Positions 1-57,791 of a DNA stretch of 64,000 bases are shown piece after piece. A program made the position numbers and the translations under genes. The first letter of the stretch is position 1; every line of letters begins with the position of its first letter. The notes beneath the pieces were generated by a model. The model was given only the letters and a program-made list of their open reading frames with translations, was not told the origin of the DNA and did not search any database. Origin of the DNA: Terriglobia bacterium (lineage in GTDB: Bacteria > Acidobacteriota > Terriglobia > Acidiferrales > UBA7541); assembly GCA_020072765.1 (NCBI GenBank), contig JAIQGD010000001.1, positions 62,001-126,000 of the forward strand. The letters are read 5' to 3'.

Positions 1-467
1 GCGCCGACCGGACACACCTGCACACAGGGAGGGTTGGCGCAGTGGTTGCAGAGCTTGGGCACAAAGAAGGTGCGCAGGATGCCCTTTTCGCTGACCGTGG
101 AGGGAAACCCTTCGATTCCGCCATTGGGACTGGTTACCACGGTTTGTCCGTCCGTCGTGATCACGTAGCGCTCCACCCAGGTGCGGAAGTAGAACGGCTC
201 GCGCGGGACATTGTTCTCGGTCTTGCAAGCATCCACGCAACGGCCGCAGCCGATGCACTTGTTCACACTGATGCCCATCCCGTAGTAGTGCTCTTCCGGC
301 TTGTAGTTCGGCTCCTCGGCGCCTGCAGCCACGCCTTCCGCCACGGCGATGGTCGCCAGCAGTAACGGAGCCGCCGCCGCGCACTGCTTCAAAAATTCCC
401 GCCGCTCCTGGGAGACTTGCTCCGGTGCGCCGGCAATAGCTTGAGGAGGCTTCGCTTCAGGGGTCAT
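1..467 (-). CDS. 4Fe-4S ferredoxin-type electron-transfer subunit with Tat-like leader (partial, continues beyond window start)
   Basis: Read from the minus strand: MTPEAKPPQAIAG..QERREFLKQCAAAAPLLLA leader, then KCIGCGRCVDACKTENN and LCNHCANPPCVQVCPVGA cluster motifs. ATG at 467 overlaps the upstream stop (ATGA). Confidence 0.85.
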   Translation of the reverse strand, partial: MTPEAKPPQAIAGAPEQVSQERREFLKQCAAAAPLLLATIAVAEGVAAGAEEPNYKPEEHYYGMGISVNKCIGCGRCVDACKTENNVPREPFYFRTWVERYVITTDGQTVVTSPNGGIEGFPSTVSEKGILRTFFVPKLCNHCANPPCVQVCPVG

Positions 468-1192
468 GGGACCTCCGGAAAATGGGCGTAGTGGCATTGC
501 CAGCAGACGTAGCGCTCCCCATGAGTACTTAGGTCCACGCGCGCAACGTCGGGAGCTCCCTTCGCTCCCTGGGCATGGCACTGCCCGCAGAATTCACGGG
601 TCTGCGGCTTCGTGGGGGTGCTCAACAACGGATTGATCTTGTGCGTTTCCTCGACGTGGTGGCACGTGGTGCAAGGAACCGTGGTGTGCTTCGACAGAGC
701 CTTGGTTCTGGCGATTTCACCGTGGCAGGCGCTGCACTCCTGGGGCGTGTGCGGAGGAACCGGCGCGTGCGGGTTGTGGCAGGTGATGCAGGGCCGCCCG
801 GGGTTGTGGCTGACGGGATCAATTTGCGGAAAGCCGGTCGGCCGCGACGGGTCATAGCCATGGCACAGCGGGCAAAAACCACGCTGGCGAGGGGCCGGGG
901 GCTTGTGATCCGCGGGGGATTCCACATGCGCCGCCTGAGCGCCATGGCAGACCTCGCACGCCACGCTCCGGTGCCGCGCCTCGTCGTGAACCTTGGCGAT
1001 ATCCGGATGGCATAACGCACACGCTTCGTGCCCCGCATAGACTTCGGGCTTGGAAGCATTGGCATCAATCGCGGCGGCTCGGTAATGACCCAAAGCGCCG
1101 AAGGTCTTGGGGACCATGTAATGCCGGGCAACGGTCAAGCTCCCACCCAGGATCAGGAAGACAACCACCAGACGATTCACCTGTTGGGGCAT
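464..1192 (-). CDS. multiheme cytochrome c (8 CxxCH)
   Basis: CALCH, CEVCH, CPLCH, CITCH, CSACH, CTTCH, CGQCH, CWQCH; N-terminal hydrophobic anchor. Confidence 0.9.
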   Translation of the reverse strand: MPQQVNRLVVVFLILGGSLTVARHYMVPKTFGALGHYRAAAIDANASKPEVYAGHEACALCHPDIAKVHDEARHRSVACEVCHGAQAAHVESPADHKPPAPRQRGFCPLCHGYDPSRPTGFPQIDPVSHNPGRPCITCHNPHAPVPPHTPQECSACHGEIARTKALSKHTTVPCTTCHHVEETHKINPLLSTPTKPQTREFCGQCHAQGAKGAPDVARVDLSTHGERYVCWQCHYAHFPEVP

Positions 1193-1252: not shown

Positions 1253-1266
1253 GTGATGCCGGTCAC
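1253..1266. promoter_or_regulatory. CRP-like palindrome GTGA-tgccgg-TCAC
   Basis: Perfect GTGA-N6-TCAC, 61 bp upstream of the 8-heme cytochrome start. Confidence 0.7.
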
Positions 1267-1275
1267 AGAAAGAAC

Positions 1276-1289
1276 GTGAGCTTTATCAC
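1276..1289. promoter_or_regulatory. CRP-like palindrome GTGA-gcttta-TCAC
   Basis: Perfect GTGA-N6-TCAC, 23 bp from the preceding site. Confidence 0.7.
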
Positions 1290-8517: not shown

Positions 8518-8531
8518 GTGACCGTTATCAC
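8518..8531. promoter_or_regulatory. CRP-like palindrome GTGA-ccgtta-TCAC
   Basis: Perfect match in the divergent region between decaheme and cytochrome c/cox operons. Confidence 0.7.
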
Positions 8532-8540
8532 ACATTTCCT

Positions 8541-8554
8541 GTGATCCTTATCAC
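8541..8554. promoter_or_regulatory. CRP-like palindrome GTGA-tcctta-TCAC (TGTGA-N6-TCACA)
   Basis: Perfect extended match, 23 bp from the preceding site. Confidence 0.75.
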
Positions 8555-16090: not shown

Positions 16091-16797
16091 TGCCGGTGCT
16101 TTCCGATCTCCGCGTGTCGGTAACCGCCGAAGACCTCACGCGTTCGTGGGGCCCCCAGCGCGCGCGACTGGTCTCTCCAAAGATGCTCGCGCGGGTCTCC
16201 GAACTCCTGGAACGCATCGAGGCGGAGCGCTGGCTGCAACCGCAGATCAGTTTTCAGTTCTGGCCGGTGACCGCGGTCACACCCGAGGGAATCGAACTGG
16301 CGACCGGCTCGCGGCTGCACGCTCCGCTGGCTTTTGATTACTTCCGGGGTGCCATGCAGGTCGGCATTGGTGTCTGCACCTTGGGGGGCACGCTCGAAAA
16401 GCACGTCGCGGAAGCATTCGAAGCGAGGGACCGCCTGCGCGGCGTGCTCCTGGACGAGATCGGCACGCTGGCGCTGTACCAGCTCAGCGATCGCCTCGAT
16501 GAGCGCATGCAGGAAGATGCCCAGCTCCTGGGTCTGGATATCAGCGGCATCCTCAATCCGGGCGATGACGGCTTCGATTTGAGCGAGCACGGATTGCTGT
16601 TGTCCCTGTCCGGAGGAGCCGAAATCGGCCTTTCCGTGACCACCCTGGGCATGCTGCGGCCGCAAAAGAGCATTTCCCTGGTGGTCGGCCTGGGCAAGGA
16701 CATGCCCAAATGGAATCGGGGCGACCGCTGCGAGCGCTGCGCGATGAAGGACCGCTGCCCGAACCGGCGCTCACTTCTCCAGGAAGTGGCCACATGA
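16091..16797 (+). CDS. MetH activation-domain-like protein of corrinoid operon
   Basis: GVCTLGGTLEKHV, LALYQLSDRLDERM, C-terminal CERCAMKDRCPNR. Confidence 0.72.
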
Positions 16798-24268: not shown

Positions 24269-24282
24269 GTGACCCTCATCAC
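24269..24282. promoter_or_regulatory. CRP-like palindrome GTGA-ccctca-TCAC
   Basis: Perfect match 53 bp upstream of the USP start. Confidence 0.7.
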
Positions 24283-24339: not shown

Positions 24340-24765
24340 TCACGGCTTCCCTCCGTTGGGCATGGGATGGTGCTCGATGCTCTGCCCCGCAACCCCTTGC
24401 TGCAAAATAAGCTCCATAGCCTTGGCCATTTCTGTGGGCTGCGCCTTGTCTACAACGCAGAACATGCCCGGCCCGGCGAAATTGTGGAGATTGGCCCGTT
24501 TATCGTGCGGTTGAACCAGAATTAAACAGGGGTGCGACGGAATCCTGGAAACCTTTTCGATGAACTGGCCGACGTAGAGATCCGGCACATAGTCATCCAC
24601 GACCAGCGCGTCAAAGTGTTTGGATACGATTTCCTGCAGCGCTTCCCTGCCGCTCCAGGTTGTCCACACTCCATAGCCGTCGTGTTCCAGGAGTTCGCGC
24701 AGCGGCGCGAATTGCTGTTCGTCGTTGCTCACAATCAGAATCCGTCTTCTTTTCCCAGCAGCCAT
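24340..24765 (-). CDS. receiver-domain-like protein (single domain, partly degenerate)
   Basis: RRILIVSNDEQQFAPLRELLEHDGYGVWTTWSGREALQEIVSKHFDALVVDDYVPD. Confidence 0.7.
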   Translation of the reverse strand: MAAGKRRRILIVSNDEQQFAPLRELLEHDGYGVWTTWSGREALQEIVSKHFDALVVDDYVPDLYVGQFIEKVSRIPSHPCLILVQPHDKRANLHNFAGPGMFCVVDKAQPTEMAKAMELILQQGVAGQSIEHHPMPNGGKP

Positions 24766-24818: not shown

Positions 24819-24832
24819 GTGATCTGCATCAC
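24819..24832. promoter_or_regulatory. CRP-like palindrome GTGA-tctgca-TCAC
   Basis: Perfect match 54 bp upstream of the receiver gene; half-site GTGA 22 bp further at 24841. Confidence 0.7.
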
Positions 24833-24921: not shown

Positions 24922-24935
24922 GTGACGTGGGTCAC
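24922..24935. promoter_or_regulatory. CRP-like palindrome GTGA-cgtggg-TCAC
   Basis: Perfect match 47 bp upstream of ATG 24982. Confidence 0.7.
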
Positions 24936-28181: not shown

Positions 28182-28195
28182 GTGACAAGCGTCAC
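28182..28195. promoter_or_regulatory. CRP-like palindrome GTGA-caagcg-TCAC
   Basis: Perfect match between the sigma54 activator and the small basic ORF; half-site TCAC 22 bp upstream at 28170. Confidence 0.6.
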
Positions 28196-30539: not shown

Positions 30540-30553
30540 GTGAGGCGGCTCAC
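30540..30553. promoter_or_regulatory. CRP-like palindrome GTGA-ggcggc-TCAC
   Basis: Perfect match in the divergent glgP/P-type ATPase region. Confidence 0.65.
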
Positions 30554-30561
30554 ATCCGACC

Positions 30562-30575
30562 GTGACTCAGATCAC
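30562..30575. promoter_or_regulatory. CRP-like palindrome GTGA-ctcaga-TCAC
   Basis: Perfect match 22 bp from the preceding site. Confidence 0.7.
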
Positions 30576-32683: not shown

Positions 32684-32697
32684 GTGACGCGTGTCAC
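32684..32697. promoter_or_regulatory. CRP-like palindrome GTGA-cgcgtg-TCAC
   Basis: Perfect match 75 bp upstream of the VWFA gene. Confidence 0.65.
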
Positions 32698-32771
32698 AGC
32701 CGCCGGCGTGCCCCCTCCGTTAAATTACGTTATAGGAAAAGCACTTGGAGGCTAGGGGGAGGTCCGCAACC

Positions 32772-33866
32772 ATGCGGCCTAGAGGCGCGATCCTGATGGC
32801 AGGACTTGTCCTGTCCACGCTGGCCATGGCCCCGCCGGCAGTATCACCTCGCCCTACTGCCGTGTCCCAGGCGCCGTCCGGGCCTCAGCCACCTTCCGGG
32901 CCGGCCGGACAGCAACCAGTCCCAACGCCTCTTCCCAATGAACAGGCTAGACCCAGCGTAATCACGGTTGAGTCGGCGCTGGTGACCGTGGATGTGCTGG
33001 TCACCGACGACAAGGGGCGCGTGCTGACGGCCCTGAAGAAGGACAACTTCCGCATCCTGGACAACGGGCAACCACAACGAGTCACAACGTTCGCTCCCGT
33101 GAACGCGCCCATCACCATTGTTCTCCTGCTGGAATACAGTGAGGCGGCCAGCGATTACTTCGCGTATAAGTCTGCTTCCTGGGGATCGGACTTCCTCCGC
33201 CATTTGGAAAGCCAGGACTGGGTGGCGCTGGTCACCTATGACATGAACCCCGCCGTCCGTGTGGACTTCACGCGCAACAAAGCCGCGGTCCAGGACGCGC
33301 TCTACAGCCTGGGGTACCCGCCCTTCCACGAAACCAACCTGTTTGATGCCGTCATAGATACACTCGACCGTCTTCAGCCCATCCAGGGGAAGAAGTCGGT
33401 GCTGCTCATCACCACCGGTTACGACACGTTCAGCGAACATACTCTCGACGCCACTTATAAGCGCCTCAAAGAAAGCGATGCCACGGTTTTCTGCATCGGC
33501 ATGGCCGAGAGCGAATACGGGCTGTCCGAAGCGGGAGGACTCAACTATCTTCAGGCGAAAAATCAGCTCGACACGTTTTCCAGGCTGACTGGCGGGCTTG
33601 CCTGGTTCCCTCGCTTCCAAGGCGAACTCCCCAGCATCTTTAAAAGCGTCACCGGCTTCCTGCGCAATCAGTACGCCCTCGGCTTCTCGCCGCTCGAGCC
33701 GGCCCGGGACGGCAAATATCACAAGTTGACCGTGCAAGTGGTGGGCGCAGATGGCCGGCCGCTGACCGTCGTGGACGAAAAGGGGAAGCGCCACAAAGTC
33801 GAAGTCCACGCGCGGGAAGGCTACACGGCTTCCAAACGACCTCCGGAAAATAGGGCCCGAACATGA
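32772..33866 (+). CDS. VWFA-related domain protein (acidobacterial type)
   Basis: VTVDVLVTDDKGRVLTALKKDNFRILDNGQPQRVTTF..LLLEYSE..LLITTGYDTFSEHTLDATYKRLKESDATVFCIG; signal peptide. Confidence 0.85.
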   Translation: MRPRGAILMAGLVLSTLAMAPPAVSPRPTAVSQAPSGPQPPSGPAGQQPVPTPLPNEQARPSVITVESALVTVDVLVTDDKGRVLTALKKDNFRILDNGQPQRVTTFAPVNAPITIVLLLEYSEAASDYFAYKSASWGSDFLRHLESQDWVALVTYDMNPAVRVDFTRNKAAVQDALYSLGYPPFHETNLFDAVIDTLDRLQPIQGKKSVLLITTGYDTFSEHTLDATYKRLKESDATVFCIGMAESEYGLSEAGGLNYLQAKNQLDTFSRLTGGLAWFPRFQGELPSIFKSVTGFLRNQYALGFSPLEPARDGKYHKLTVQVVGADGRPLTVVDEKGKRHKVEVHAREGYTASKRPPENRART

Positions 33867-35527: not shown

Positions 35528-36244
35528 CTACGCGACCGCCAGAGCCCGCAATTCGGGCTCATTCCGAATCAGCACGACCGGCCCGCTGGTAAGGATGAGC
35601 TTCTTGTTTTTGAAGTCCGAGAGCGTGCGCGTGACGGTCTCCCGCGAAATACCGATCATCTGGGAAATTTCCTCGTGCGTCAGGCCCAGATGAAAGCGTT
35701 TGCCCTGGTTGGTCTCCTGGGCGCGTTCCGACGACTCCAGCAGAAACTGGGCCACCTTTTCCGTAGCCGTGCGCGAGAGCCCCAGATAGCGGATCTCCTG
35801 GCAGGCCTGGCGGTAGCGTTCGCTCAGCTGACGGATGACGGCGGACGACACGACCGGGTGTTCCCGCATCAGCCGCAGAAAGTCGTCGCGGCGGATAAAG
35901 TCGATCTGGCAGGGCTGGAGAGCCTCGGCCGTCAGTTCGTAGGGGTGCCCCGACAGCGTGGCGTGCAGCCCCAGGATTTCTCCCGATTCGCGGATGCGCA
36001 CGATCAGCGTCTTCCCTTCCGCGGAGTTCATCGTCAATTTCACGCGGCCCCTGCAGAGCACATAGACCCCGCGCGGCGACTGCCCCTCCACAAACAGCAC
36101 GGCGCGAGCCGGATACGCACTGGCATAGGTAACCTTGCCCAGCGCGTCCATCGCGGGGTGGGGCAACTGGCAGAAAAAGCCTTCTTTTCGCATATGGCAA
36201 GCCATGCAATTCTCCACTAGATCCAAATCGTAAGGCGCGTGCAT
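35528..36244 (-). CDS. Crp/Fnr-family transcriptional regulator
   Basis: cNMP-binding fold; HTH LTHEEISQMIGISRETVTRTLSDFKNKKLI; N-terminal CMACHMRKEGFFC. Confidence 0.93.
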   Translation of the reverse strand: MHAPYDLDLVENCMACHMRKEGFFCQLPHPAMDALGKVTYASAYPARAVLFVEGQSPRGVYVLCRGRVKLTMNSAEGKTLIVRIRESGEILGLHATLSGHPYELTAEALQPCQIDFIRRDDFLRLMREHPVVSSAVIRQLSERYRQACQEIRYLGLSRTATEKVAQFLLESSERAQETNQGKRFHLGLTHEEISQMIGISRETVTRTLSDFKNKKLILTSGPVVLIRNEPELRALAVA

Positions 36245-36269: not shown

Positions 36270-36566
36270 TCAGTGAGCTTCGCCCGTGGCCCCTTGTTCC
36301 AAAATAAACCGCAGAAACGCCGAAGGCTCGATAAAGGCCGCCCCTTCCTGTTGCATTCGCAGAAGAAGGGCTTGCCCCCGCGAGTCGACAAAACGCACTC
36401 CTTGCAAATCGACGAGAATCTTCTCACCCAGGTTCTGCCGGGCCGTGCCGAGCCAGACCTTGCTGAGTTCGTCCACCCAGGGGCCCTTCACCGCACCTTC
36501 CAGTTTCAGTACAAGCGCGTCTGCTTGTTCATTGGTTGTGATTTTGAGCATGTTCTGTTGGTCCAA
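36270..36566 (-). CDS. STAS-domain-like small protein
   Basis: ALVLKLEGAVKGPWVDELSKVW..KILVDLQGVRFVDSRGQALLLRMQQEGAAF. Confidence 0.65.
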   Translation of the reverse strand: MDQQNMLKITTNEQADALVLKLEGAVKGPWVDELSKVWLGTARQNLGEKILVDLQGVRFVDSRGQALLLRMQQEGAAFIEPSAFLRFILEQGATGEAH

Positions 36567-36913
36567 TTGTCACAGTGCAATGTGATGACCAATTCGGATC
36601 CGTCAGGTAGGAAATGTCCAAGTGATTACGAAGATTGGCAGATAAATTGAATTTTCAGCAATAATCAATTGTTTCGGCAAACATAATTGGGACGAAATAT
36701 CGTCTTGGGACGGTCTATCACCACGTTCTAGTACCGTTTCGGAGTTGATTTTCCTCTTTTTGATTGCTATCAATTCCGGACTAATCCCTCACCAGTCAAA
36801 ACCATGAGTTCAATATATTAGAGCGCTTTAAGGAAGACTCTTCGAACTTCGGGGAGAAGCCAAGAATATAACCAAACAAGTGAGATGGCTCGAACGGAGA
36901 TGCCTCAGTCCTG

Positions 36914-41275: not shown

Positions 41276-41289
41276 GTGATGGCGGTCAC
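41276..41289. promoter_or_regulatory. CRP-like palindrome GTGA-tggcgg-TCAC
   Basis: Perfect match 142 bp upstream of Hsp20; half-site GTGA 22 bp further at 41298. Confidence 0.65.
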
Positions 41290-56633: not shown

Positions 56634-57791
56634 CTAATAAGACTTCGGCATCTTCAACACGTTCTGGCCGACAAACGCCAGGATGAGGTTGTTGTTCACC
56701 GGCGCGATGCTGAGCAGACGCGTCTCGCGGAACTTGCGCTCCACGTCGTAATCGCGCGCAAAAGAGTAGCCGCCATAGGTGTTCATGCAAGCGTTGGCGG
56801 CTTCCCATGAGGCCTCGGTGGCCAAGTACTTCGCCATGTTCGCCTCAGCTCCGCACTTCTCCTTGCGGTCGAATTTCGATGCGGCATCGAACCGCATCAA
56901 GTCGGCCGCCTCGATGTTCGCGTAGGCCTTCGCAATCGGAAACTGCACGCCCTGATTGGTTCCGATGGGCTTCCCGAAGACGACGCGCTCGGACGCGTAG
57001 GAAGACGCGCGTTCGACGAACCAATGGCCATCCCCGATCGCTTCGGAGGCGACCAGGATGCGCTCCGCGTTCCACCCGTCAATGATGTAGCGGAAGCCCT
57101 TGCCTTCCTCACCGATCAGGCTCGACGCGGGAATCTCCACGTCCTCGAAGAACATGCTGGTCGTGTGGTGATTGACCATCATGTCGAGCGGCCGAATTTG
57201 GAGATTACCCTTCAGATGCCGCATGTCCACGACGAACACCGAGATTCCCGCCGTCTTATCCTTCACGTCGGCGTAGGGTGTGGTGCGGGCCAGCAGCAGC
57301 ATCAGGTCGGATTGCTTCGCACGGGAGATGAAAATCTTCGTCCCGTTGACGATGTACTTGTCGCCCTTCCGTTCCGCACGCGTCTCGATCTTCGTGGTTT
57401 CGGAGCCGGCATTCGGTTCGGTCACAGCGAAGGTCTGCAGTCGAAGCTTGCCCTGCGCAATCTGCGGGAGATACAGCTTCTTCTGCTCCTCAGTGCCGTG
57501 CCGCAGGAGCGTGCCCATCGTGTACATCTGTGCGTGGCACGCGCCCGAGGCTCCGCCCGAATGATTGATCTCCTCGAGAATGACGCCCGCCTCGGTGATG
57601 CCAAGTCCCGAGCCGCCGTATTCTTCCGGAATCAGCGCGGCCAGATACCCGCTGTCGGTGAGCGCCTTCACGAAATCGTCCGGATAGGCCTCTTTCTTGT
57701 CGATCTCCCGCCAGTAGGTGTCGGGAAAATCCTTGCACAGCGCCCGCACGTTGTCGCGAATTGCCCGAATATCTTCTGCCGTAGGTGCCAT
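56634..57791 (-). CDS. acyl-CoA dehydrogenase family protein
   Basis: IPEEYGGSGLGITEAGVILEEI, QTFAVTEPNAGSETTKIETRAER, GKPIGTNQGVQFPIAKAYANIEAA, YGGYSFARDYDVERKFRETR. Confidence 0.94.
   Translation of the reverse strand: MAPTAEDIRAIRDNVRALCKDFPDTYWREIDKKEAYPDDFVKALTDSGYLAALIPEEYGGSGLGITEAGVILEEINHSGGASGACHAQMYTMGTLLRHGTEEQKKLYLPQIAQGKLRLQTFAVTEPNAGSETTKIETRAERKGDKYIVNGTKIFISRAKQSDLMLLLARTTPYADVKDKTAGISVFVVDMRHLKGNLQIRPLDMMVNHHTTSMFFEDVEIPASSLIGEEGKGFRYIIDGWNAERILVASEAIGDGHWFVERASSYASERVVFGKPIGTNQGVQFPIAKAYANIEAADLMRFDAASKFDRKEKCGAEANMAKYLATEASWEAANACMNTYGGYSFARDYDVERKFRETRLLSIAPVNNNLILAFVGQNVLKMPKSY

Follow-up and report, generated by a model that had tools for sequence, protein, structure and literature searches.

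A candidate four-cysteine Crp/Fnr regulator with a CRP-type DNA box beside low-oxygen genes of an acidobacterium

The window analysed here, a 64 kb stretch from the genome of a Terriglobia bacterium, encodes a Crp/Fnr-family regulator of 238 amino acids that may switch on a neighbouring set of genes for survival at low oxygen. The protein makes a good candidate in this respect, since it lacks the pocket residues that bind cAMP, carries the DNA code of CRP and has four cysteines that are inherited together and probably ligate an oxygen-sensitive iron-sulfur cluster. The explanation that the sequence analysis somewhat favours as a whole is that the protein acts as a four-cysteine [4Fe-4S] activator of the low-oxygen genes of the island through GTGAY-N4-RTCAC boxes.

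The regulator and its recognition helix

The gene and its DNA-recognition segment lie at the following positions.

35528..36244, minus strand: Crp/Fnr-family regulator, 238 aa (ORF, Pfam, AlphaFold2 model)
35618..35653, minus strand: recognition helix G198-ISRETVTRTL, with R201, E202 and R206 (alignments)

The reading frame was recovered by an ORF check of the window and starts with the ATG at 36244; the protein begins MHAPYDLDLVENCMACHMRKEGFFC, and relatives that likewise open with MRGPYGLEL or MHVPYGL support this start. The Pfam matches, to cNMP_binding (PF00027, 1.9e-17) and HTH_Crp_2 (PF13545, 7.7e-18), are both well over the cut-off, and the protein has the marks of the Crp/Fnr superfamily, namely a cNMP-binding-like beta-roll, a Crp-type winged HTH and a matching fold. 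An earlier note, made from the sequence alone, had described a Crp/Fnr regulator with an N-terminal cysteine cluster here, and the reading frame, the domains and the C-x2-C-x8-C spacing of that cluster all bear it out. The scores against the NCBIfam models for CRP (77.8 bits, cut-off 266) and Fnr (56.5 bits, cut-off 228) are so far under their cut-offs that the regulator falls outside both named groups. Its AlphaFold2 model, built with 73 sequences and having a mean pLDDT of 90.9, aligns with holo-FNR crystals over 238 columns (TM 0.82) and with a disordered apo form over 199; the top PDB matches by both sequence and fold are actinobacterial CRPs.

The helix GISRETVTRTL is CRP-like, as had been proposed from the sequence: in alignment, R201, E202 and R206 fall on the three recognition residues of E. 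coli CRP (RETVGR), and all three are invariant in alignment A1. A published rule links R180 to position G3 of the half-site and E181 to position A6 (PMC1274295), and the half-site predicted for R201 and E202 is therefore GTGA.

The DNA box and the island of sites

The box preferred by the family was sought with no prior choice of sequence: each of the 256 possible palindromic half-sites, with a spacer of 6 bp, was counted within 300 bp upstream of the family's genes. GTGA ranks first, being present upstream of 33 of the 105 triad-bearing genes (those whose products carry the N-terminal cysteine triad described below), against a median of 0 for all half-sites. Permutations of GTGA used as the half-site give 0-1, the enrichment appears only at a spacing of 6, and within the coding bodies of family genes GTGA-N6-TCAC occurs in 4 of 107. 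The half-site in second place, CACA with 12, would be expected from tandem GTGA boxes spaced by 22 bp. Relatives that lack the cysteines also have the box upstream (9/33), so the box is independent of the cysteines.

The abundance of GTGAY-N4-RTCAC also follows the family in near genomes. Within the genus its density is 6.8-17.7/Mb in genomes with the family and 3.8-8.0/Mb in those without it (p 5.6e-5), and within family f11 the corresponding ranges are 3.7-21.9/Mb and 2.4-3.6 (p 0.001); these p-values are generous, since neither the genomes of a single genus nor the promoters of related genes are fully independent of one another. Presence of the regulator family was scored at E < 1e-35, and some of the scored genomes are incomplete. 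Phylum-wide there is no informative contrast outside the class, the box also being common in genomes without the regulator family, probably because other Crp/Fnr proteins read similar boxes. The assignment of GTGA-N6-TCAC as the DNA specificity of the regulator family is well supported, and the CRP-like specificity that had been predicted from the helix is thus upheld by the commonest palindrome, by a wide distance, upstream of family genes, by its tracking of the family in near genomes, and by its presence at matching island promoters in two relatives.

In the window there are 14 GTGA-N6-TCAC sites, an excess over the remainder of the genome (Poisson p 5e-8), compared with 1 in the 62 kb to the left and 2 in the 28 kb to the right. 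Twelve of the 14 are intergenic, against 16.9% expected (p 3e-8), a count that takes the start of the P-type ATPase gene to be downstream of 30562, following homology to the related genome G001; gene starts are approximate, since genes were called simply by choosing ORFs on their codon-position composition. Three tandem pairs with separations of 22-23 bp occur in the window, and seven such pairs in the genome. The site noted earlier at 8541, TGTGATCCTTATCACA, is confirmed; it has a tandem neighbour at 8518, and the window holds 12 sites beyond these two.

1253..1289: tandem pair (separation 23 bp) upstream of a gene for a multihaem cytochrome c (464-1192, minus strand)
8518..8554: tandem pair (separation 23 bp) upstream of a gene for cytochrome c (8742), with a gene for a COX1-type oxidase (10139) after it
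16267..16280: site preceding the gene for the corrinoid activase RACo
24269..24282: site just beyond the 3' end of a response-regulator gene (24340-24765, minus strand)
24819..24832: site upstream of the same response-regulator gene
24922..24935: site within a doubtful ORF
28182..28195: site 44 bp after a PAS/sigma-54 activator gene, with a counterpart at this position in both G001 and G007
30540..30575: tandem pair (30540/30562) between divergent phosphorylase and P-type ATPase genes
32684..32697: site upstream of the ORF 32745-33866, which looks VWA-type
41276..41289: site upstream of Hsp20-CBS-baeRF-GroEL, which shares the regulator's strand and lies 5' of the regulator
57658..57671: match inside an acyl-CoA dehydrogenase gene, without the Y/R inner bases and probably due to chance

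The divergent genes at 30540..30575 encode an alpha-glucan phosphorylase and a heavy-metal-type P-ATPase, and G001 has a single site at the place of the tandem pair, between the same two genes. In both G001 and G007 the site that follows the PAS/sigma-54 gene precedes Hsp20 or CBS. Elsewhere in the genome, sites precede genes for multihaem cytochromes and adjoin genes for cbb3-type cytochromes, malic enzyme and a pyridine-nucleotide disulfide oxidoreductase.

Two gene groups of the window may be described in their own right. Between 14182 and 21863 lie genes for a corrinoid protein, a URO-D-type methyltransferase, the RACo activase, preceded by its GTGA box, and a pterin-binding methyltransferase; these form an anaerobic demethylation-type cluster. 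Between 22364 and 41257, genes for Hsp20, CBS, baeRF, USP, GroEL and P-type ATPase proteins occur together, and the Hsp20, USP, CBS, baeRF and P-ATPase genes recall the mycobacterial DosR dormancy set. A further tandem GTGA-N6-TCAC pair elsewhere in the genome (L017, G000:C78:36565-36602) stands upstream of a NiFe hydrogenase small subunit gene, near a gene for a NapC/NirT-type cytochrome.

The genome encodes three Crp/Fnr proteins with a cNMP domain, and it must be asked which of them the sites serve. Besides the window regulator there is a paralogue on contig C144, with a C-x2-C-x8-C motif and the helix TTRESVTRAF, and another on contig C76, with no cysteine site and the helix AARETVSRLL. 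R-E-x3-R is thus common to all three, the cysteine-free C76 protein included. The comparison with paralogues that the earlier note had proposed accordingly does not single out the window protein, and with two paralogues carrying the same R-E-x3-R helix the GTGA-N6-TCAC sites are not assignable to one protein. A contig-end fragment in the same genome (G000:C38:10-84) represents a further relative and is 52% identical to residues 3-27. That the genome is acidobacterial agrees with a scan of genome contigs, in which a Candidatus Acidiferrales MAG was the sole relative.

The control region of the regulator gene itself also bears on the question.

36270..36566, minus strand: STAS-domain protein directly upstream of the regulator (STAS_2, 3e-6, just under the cut-off)
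36760..36773: TTGATTGCTATCAA, a perfect FNR-type box (TTGAT-N4-ATCAA), 193 bp upstream of the STAS ORF

The STAS gene and the regulator probably form one operon, and a STAS gene also stands beside the regulator in L010, L043, L044, L046, L048 and L050 (L010 and L044 being on the same contig), which represent several genera. No GTGA box was found in the region upstream of this pair, and TTGATTGCTATCAA at 36760 is the only perfect FNR-type box of the genome. It was considered as a conserved operator and rejected, since it was not found upstream of the relatives checked and about one perfect box is expected by chance in this genome (an estimate).

It could be proposed that the boxes of the window are served mainly by the C144 or C76 paralogue and that the window protein has other, perhaps FNR-type, targets. 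The shared R-E-x3-R, the perfect TTGAT-N4-ATCAA upstream of the operon and the lack of a GTGA box there would suit such an arrangement, which is nevertheless less likely than not, because the regulator gene lies inside the hot spot of sites, and this hot spot is partly conserved around the orthologues in G001 and G007. In addition, a box stands 75 bp ahead of the start of the orthologue L045, and G005 is box-rich at 13/Mb, with the triad in both of the family members found there. A second family member, L052, has a GTGA box 52 bp upstream, and such boxes in front of orthologues and other family members suggest, on sequence grounds, autoregulation elsewhere in the family.

The cysteines and the putative cofactor

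The evidence for a cofactor site comes from the cysteines, whose codons are located as follows.

36170..36208, minus strand: N-terminal triad C13-x2-C16-x8-C25 (triad in 105/138 relatives on the tree)
36053..36055, minus strand: C64, the co-inherited fourth cysteine, in V-L-C-R-G on model strand 59-65, aligned with E. coli FNR R72 (alignment, tree and model)
35909..35911, minus strand: C112, near the FNR Cys122 position and untied to the triad (alignments and tree)

In the regulator the triad reads C13-M-A-C16-HMRKEGFF-C25. Relatives were gathered from 41 near genomes and from 297 across the phylum and then aligned, and the co-inheritance of cysteines was counted over the 138 near-full-length Acidobacteriota rows. 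The triad, which is conserved across the phylum, takes the form C-x2-C-x7/8-C in the relatives, and each row that has it also shows the cysteine of position 64, within the motif [VIL]C.G: both are present in 105 rows and neither in 29, C64 occurs with a degraded triad in 4, and the triad never occurs alone (0).

Changes were also counted on a tree from which the N-terminus and the columns of C64 and C112 had been left out: the triad changes 11 times, C64 9 times and C112 21 times. Among 7 independent supported pairs that differ in the triad, C64 differs in the same direction in 5.2 on average and in the opposite direction never; the median p of the sign test is 0.06, so that co-inheritance on the tree is suggestive. 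The cysteine first considered as the counterpart of FNR Cys122 was C112, which sits within a few residues of that position, the exact distance varying with gap placement. It was dropped because it fails to track the triad: its changes on the tree are unrelated to those of the triad, and it is missing in about half of the triad-bearing proteins.

The co-inheritance of the triad with C64, and not with C112, suggests a four-cysteine [4Fe-4S] or other metal site whose fourth ligand is unlike that of FNR. In the model C64 is on beta-roll strand 59-65, and C112 opens strand 112-118. These two strands are neighbours in the Crp beta-roll, and C64 could therefore contact a cluster at roughly the position that the cluster occupies in FNR. 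A four-cysteine metal site that includes C64 is fairly well supported, and an Fe-S cluster that senses O2 or NO is moderately supported. The candidacy of the protein as a redox or oxygen sensor, raised in the earlier note, is strengthened by the phylum-wide triad, the co-inherited fourth cysteine and the position of the sites beside respiratory and anaerobic genes.

The same cysteine pattern would be seen in the sequence if the four residues formed a structural zinc site or disulfides, in a regulator that is thiol-redox responsive or constitutive and reads a CRP-type box, and CxxC...C...C suits zinc as well. This alternative is rather improbable, since the N-terminal placement of the cysteines, the whole-length match to the holo-FNR fold and the respiratory neighbours all resemble FNR. 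That the protein is a cAMP-responsive CRP with incidental cysteines, as the actinobacterial CRPs among its best PDB matches and its CRP-type box might imply, is very improbable: cAMP binding was rejected because the residues of CRP that contact cAMP are not preserved in the alignments, and the cysteines are conserved in the phylum and co-inherited. Least credible of all is a haem-based sensor acting through CMACH, for which C13-M-A-C16-H17 would supply a CxxCH in this one protein, because H17 is replaced by P, K, R or another residue in most relatives while the cysteines are retained.

Proposed mechanism and known regulators

According to the favoured explanation, the regulator would be a homodimeric Crp/Fnr activator, rather than a repressor, of low-oxygen or redox-stress genes, in which the N-terminal C13, C16 and C25, together with C64 of the beta-roll, would hold an oxygen-labile [4Fe-4S] cluster rather than zinc. 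With the cluster intact, the dimer would bind GTGAY-N4-RTCAC boxes via R201, E202 and R206, often with two dimers bound 22-23 bp apart, and the bound regulator, presumably the window protein rather than a paralogue, would switch on the island with its genes for respiration, chaperones, baeRF and corrinoid enzymes. Destruction of the cluster by O2 or NO would then release the DNA.

The regulator resembles the FNR of E. coli and A. fischeri in its Crp/Fnr fold, its N-terminal CxxC...C with one later cysteine, its whole-length match to the holo form and, as judged here from neighbouring genes, in having genes of low-oxygen metabolism as putative targets. It differs in the spacing of the third cysteine (C-x2-C-x5-C in FNR, C-x2-C-x8-C here), in the fourth cysteine (Cys122 in FNR; position 64, equivalent to FNR R72, here), in the box (TTGAT-N4-ATCAA in FNR, GTGA-N6-TCAC in the regulator family), and in the recognition helix, which has E-x2-SR in FNR (E209, S212, R213) and RETVTR in the regulator, with R201 replacing FNR V208. 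In E. coli FNR it is the oxygen-labile [4Fe-4S] cluster that controls dimerisation. E. coli CRP shares the R-E-x3-R recognition residues (R180/E181/R185) and the GTGA-N6-TCAC box, but it has no cysteine site, and the regulator lacks the cAMP contacts of the phosphate-binding cassette.

Fnr of the Bacillus type offers a partial precedent for joining an Fe-S sensor to a CRP-type box: the Fnr of Bacillus subtilis and B. cereus has a [4Fe-4S] ligand set unlike that of E. coli FNR (PMC3520743), and a CRP-like box is described for a T. tengcongensis orthologue of the B. subtilis protein (PMC1274295). Bacillus Fnr, however, carries its cysteines on a C-terminal extension and uses Asp141 as the fourth ligand, whereas the regulator has no such extension and no cysteine after residue 148. 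HcpR of the Desulfovibrio type, a regulator of anaerobes with R180, the box wTGTGAnnnnnnTCACAw (PMC1274295) and hcp/frdX as its chief targets, is similar in its CRP-like box but is without the FNR-type cysteine motif (PMC1274295) that the regulator possesses; the HcpR of P. gingivalis uses haem (PMC12750200).

Acidobacteriota rank among the most common bacteria of soil, and text searches of the open literature turned up no described oxygen regulator of this kind for them. If the explanation is correct, it represents another way, besides those of E. coli FNR and Bacillus Fnr, to place an Fe-S cluster on the Crp fold, and the box could be used to predict low-oxygen regulons in many uncultured acidobacterial genomes. 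The broader proposal that the Acidobacteriota have a separate Crp/Fnr oxygen-sensor branch, with its own Fe-S ligand set, CRP-type boxes and a DosR-like hypoxia island, tuned by cysteine-free and sensor-only relatives, is tentative and falls a little short of probable.

One relative from another phylum, encoded on a Bernardetia plasmid (L200, Bacteroidota), has the C-x2-C-x8-C N-terminus and a cysteine in the strand that bears C64, suggesting that the four-cysteine type reaches beyond Acidobacteriota; it differs from the regulator in that the strand cysteine is two residues earlier (VHCIYEG) and the helix is TATESAIRYL. Sensor-only relatives of about 150-190 aa, with no HTH, were also observed directly beside a full-length regulator, at L091 (+1803), at L093 (+2337), and at G232:C128:48054-48524 and G281:C1:188594-189034. 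The two sensor-only relatives that were read retain the four cysteines and are preceded, at 25 bp, by a GTGA box, and such proteins are possible heterodimer partners or antagonists.
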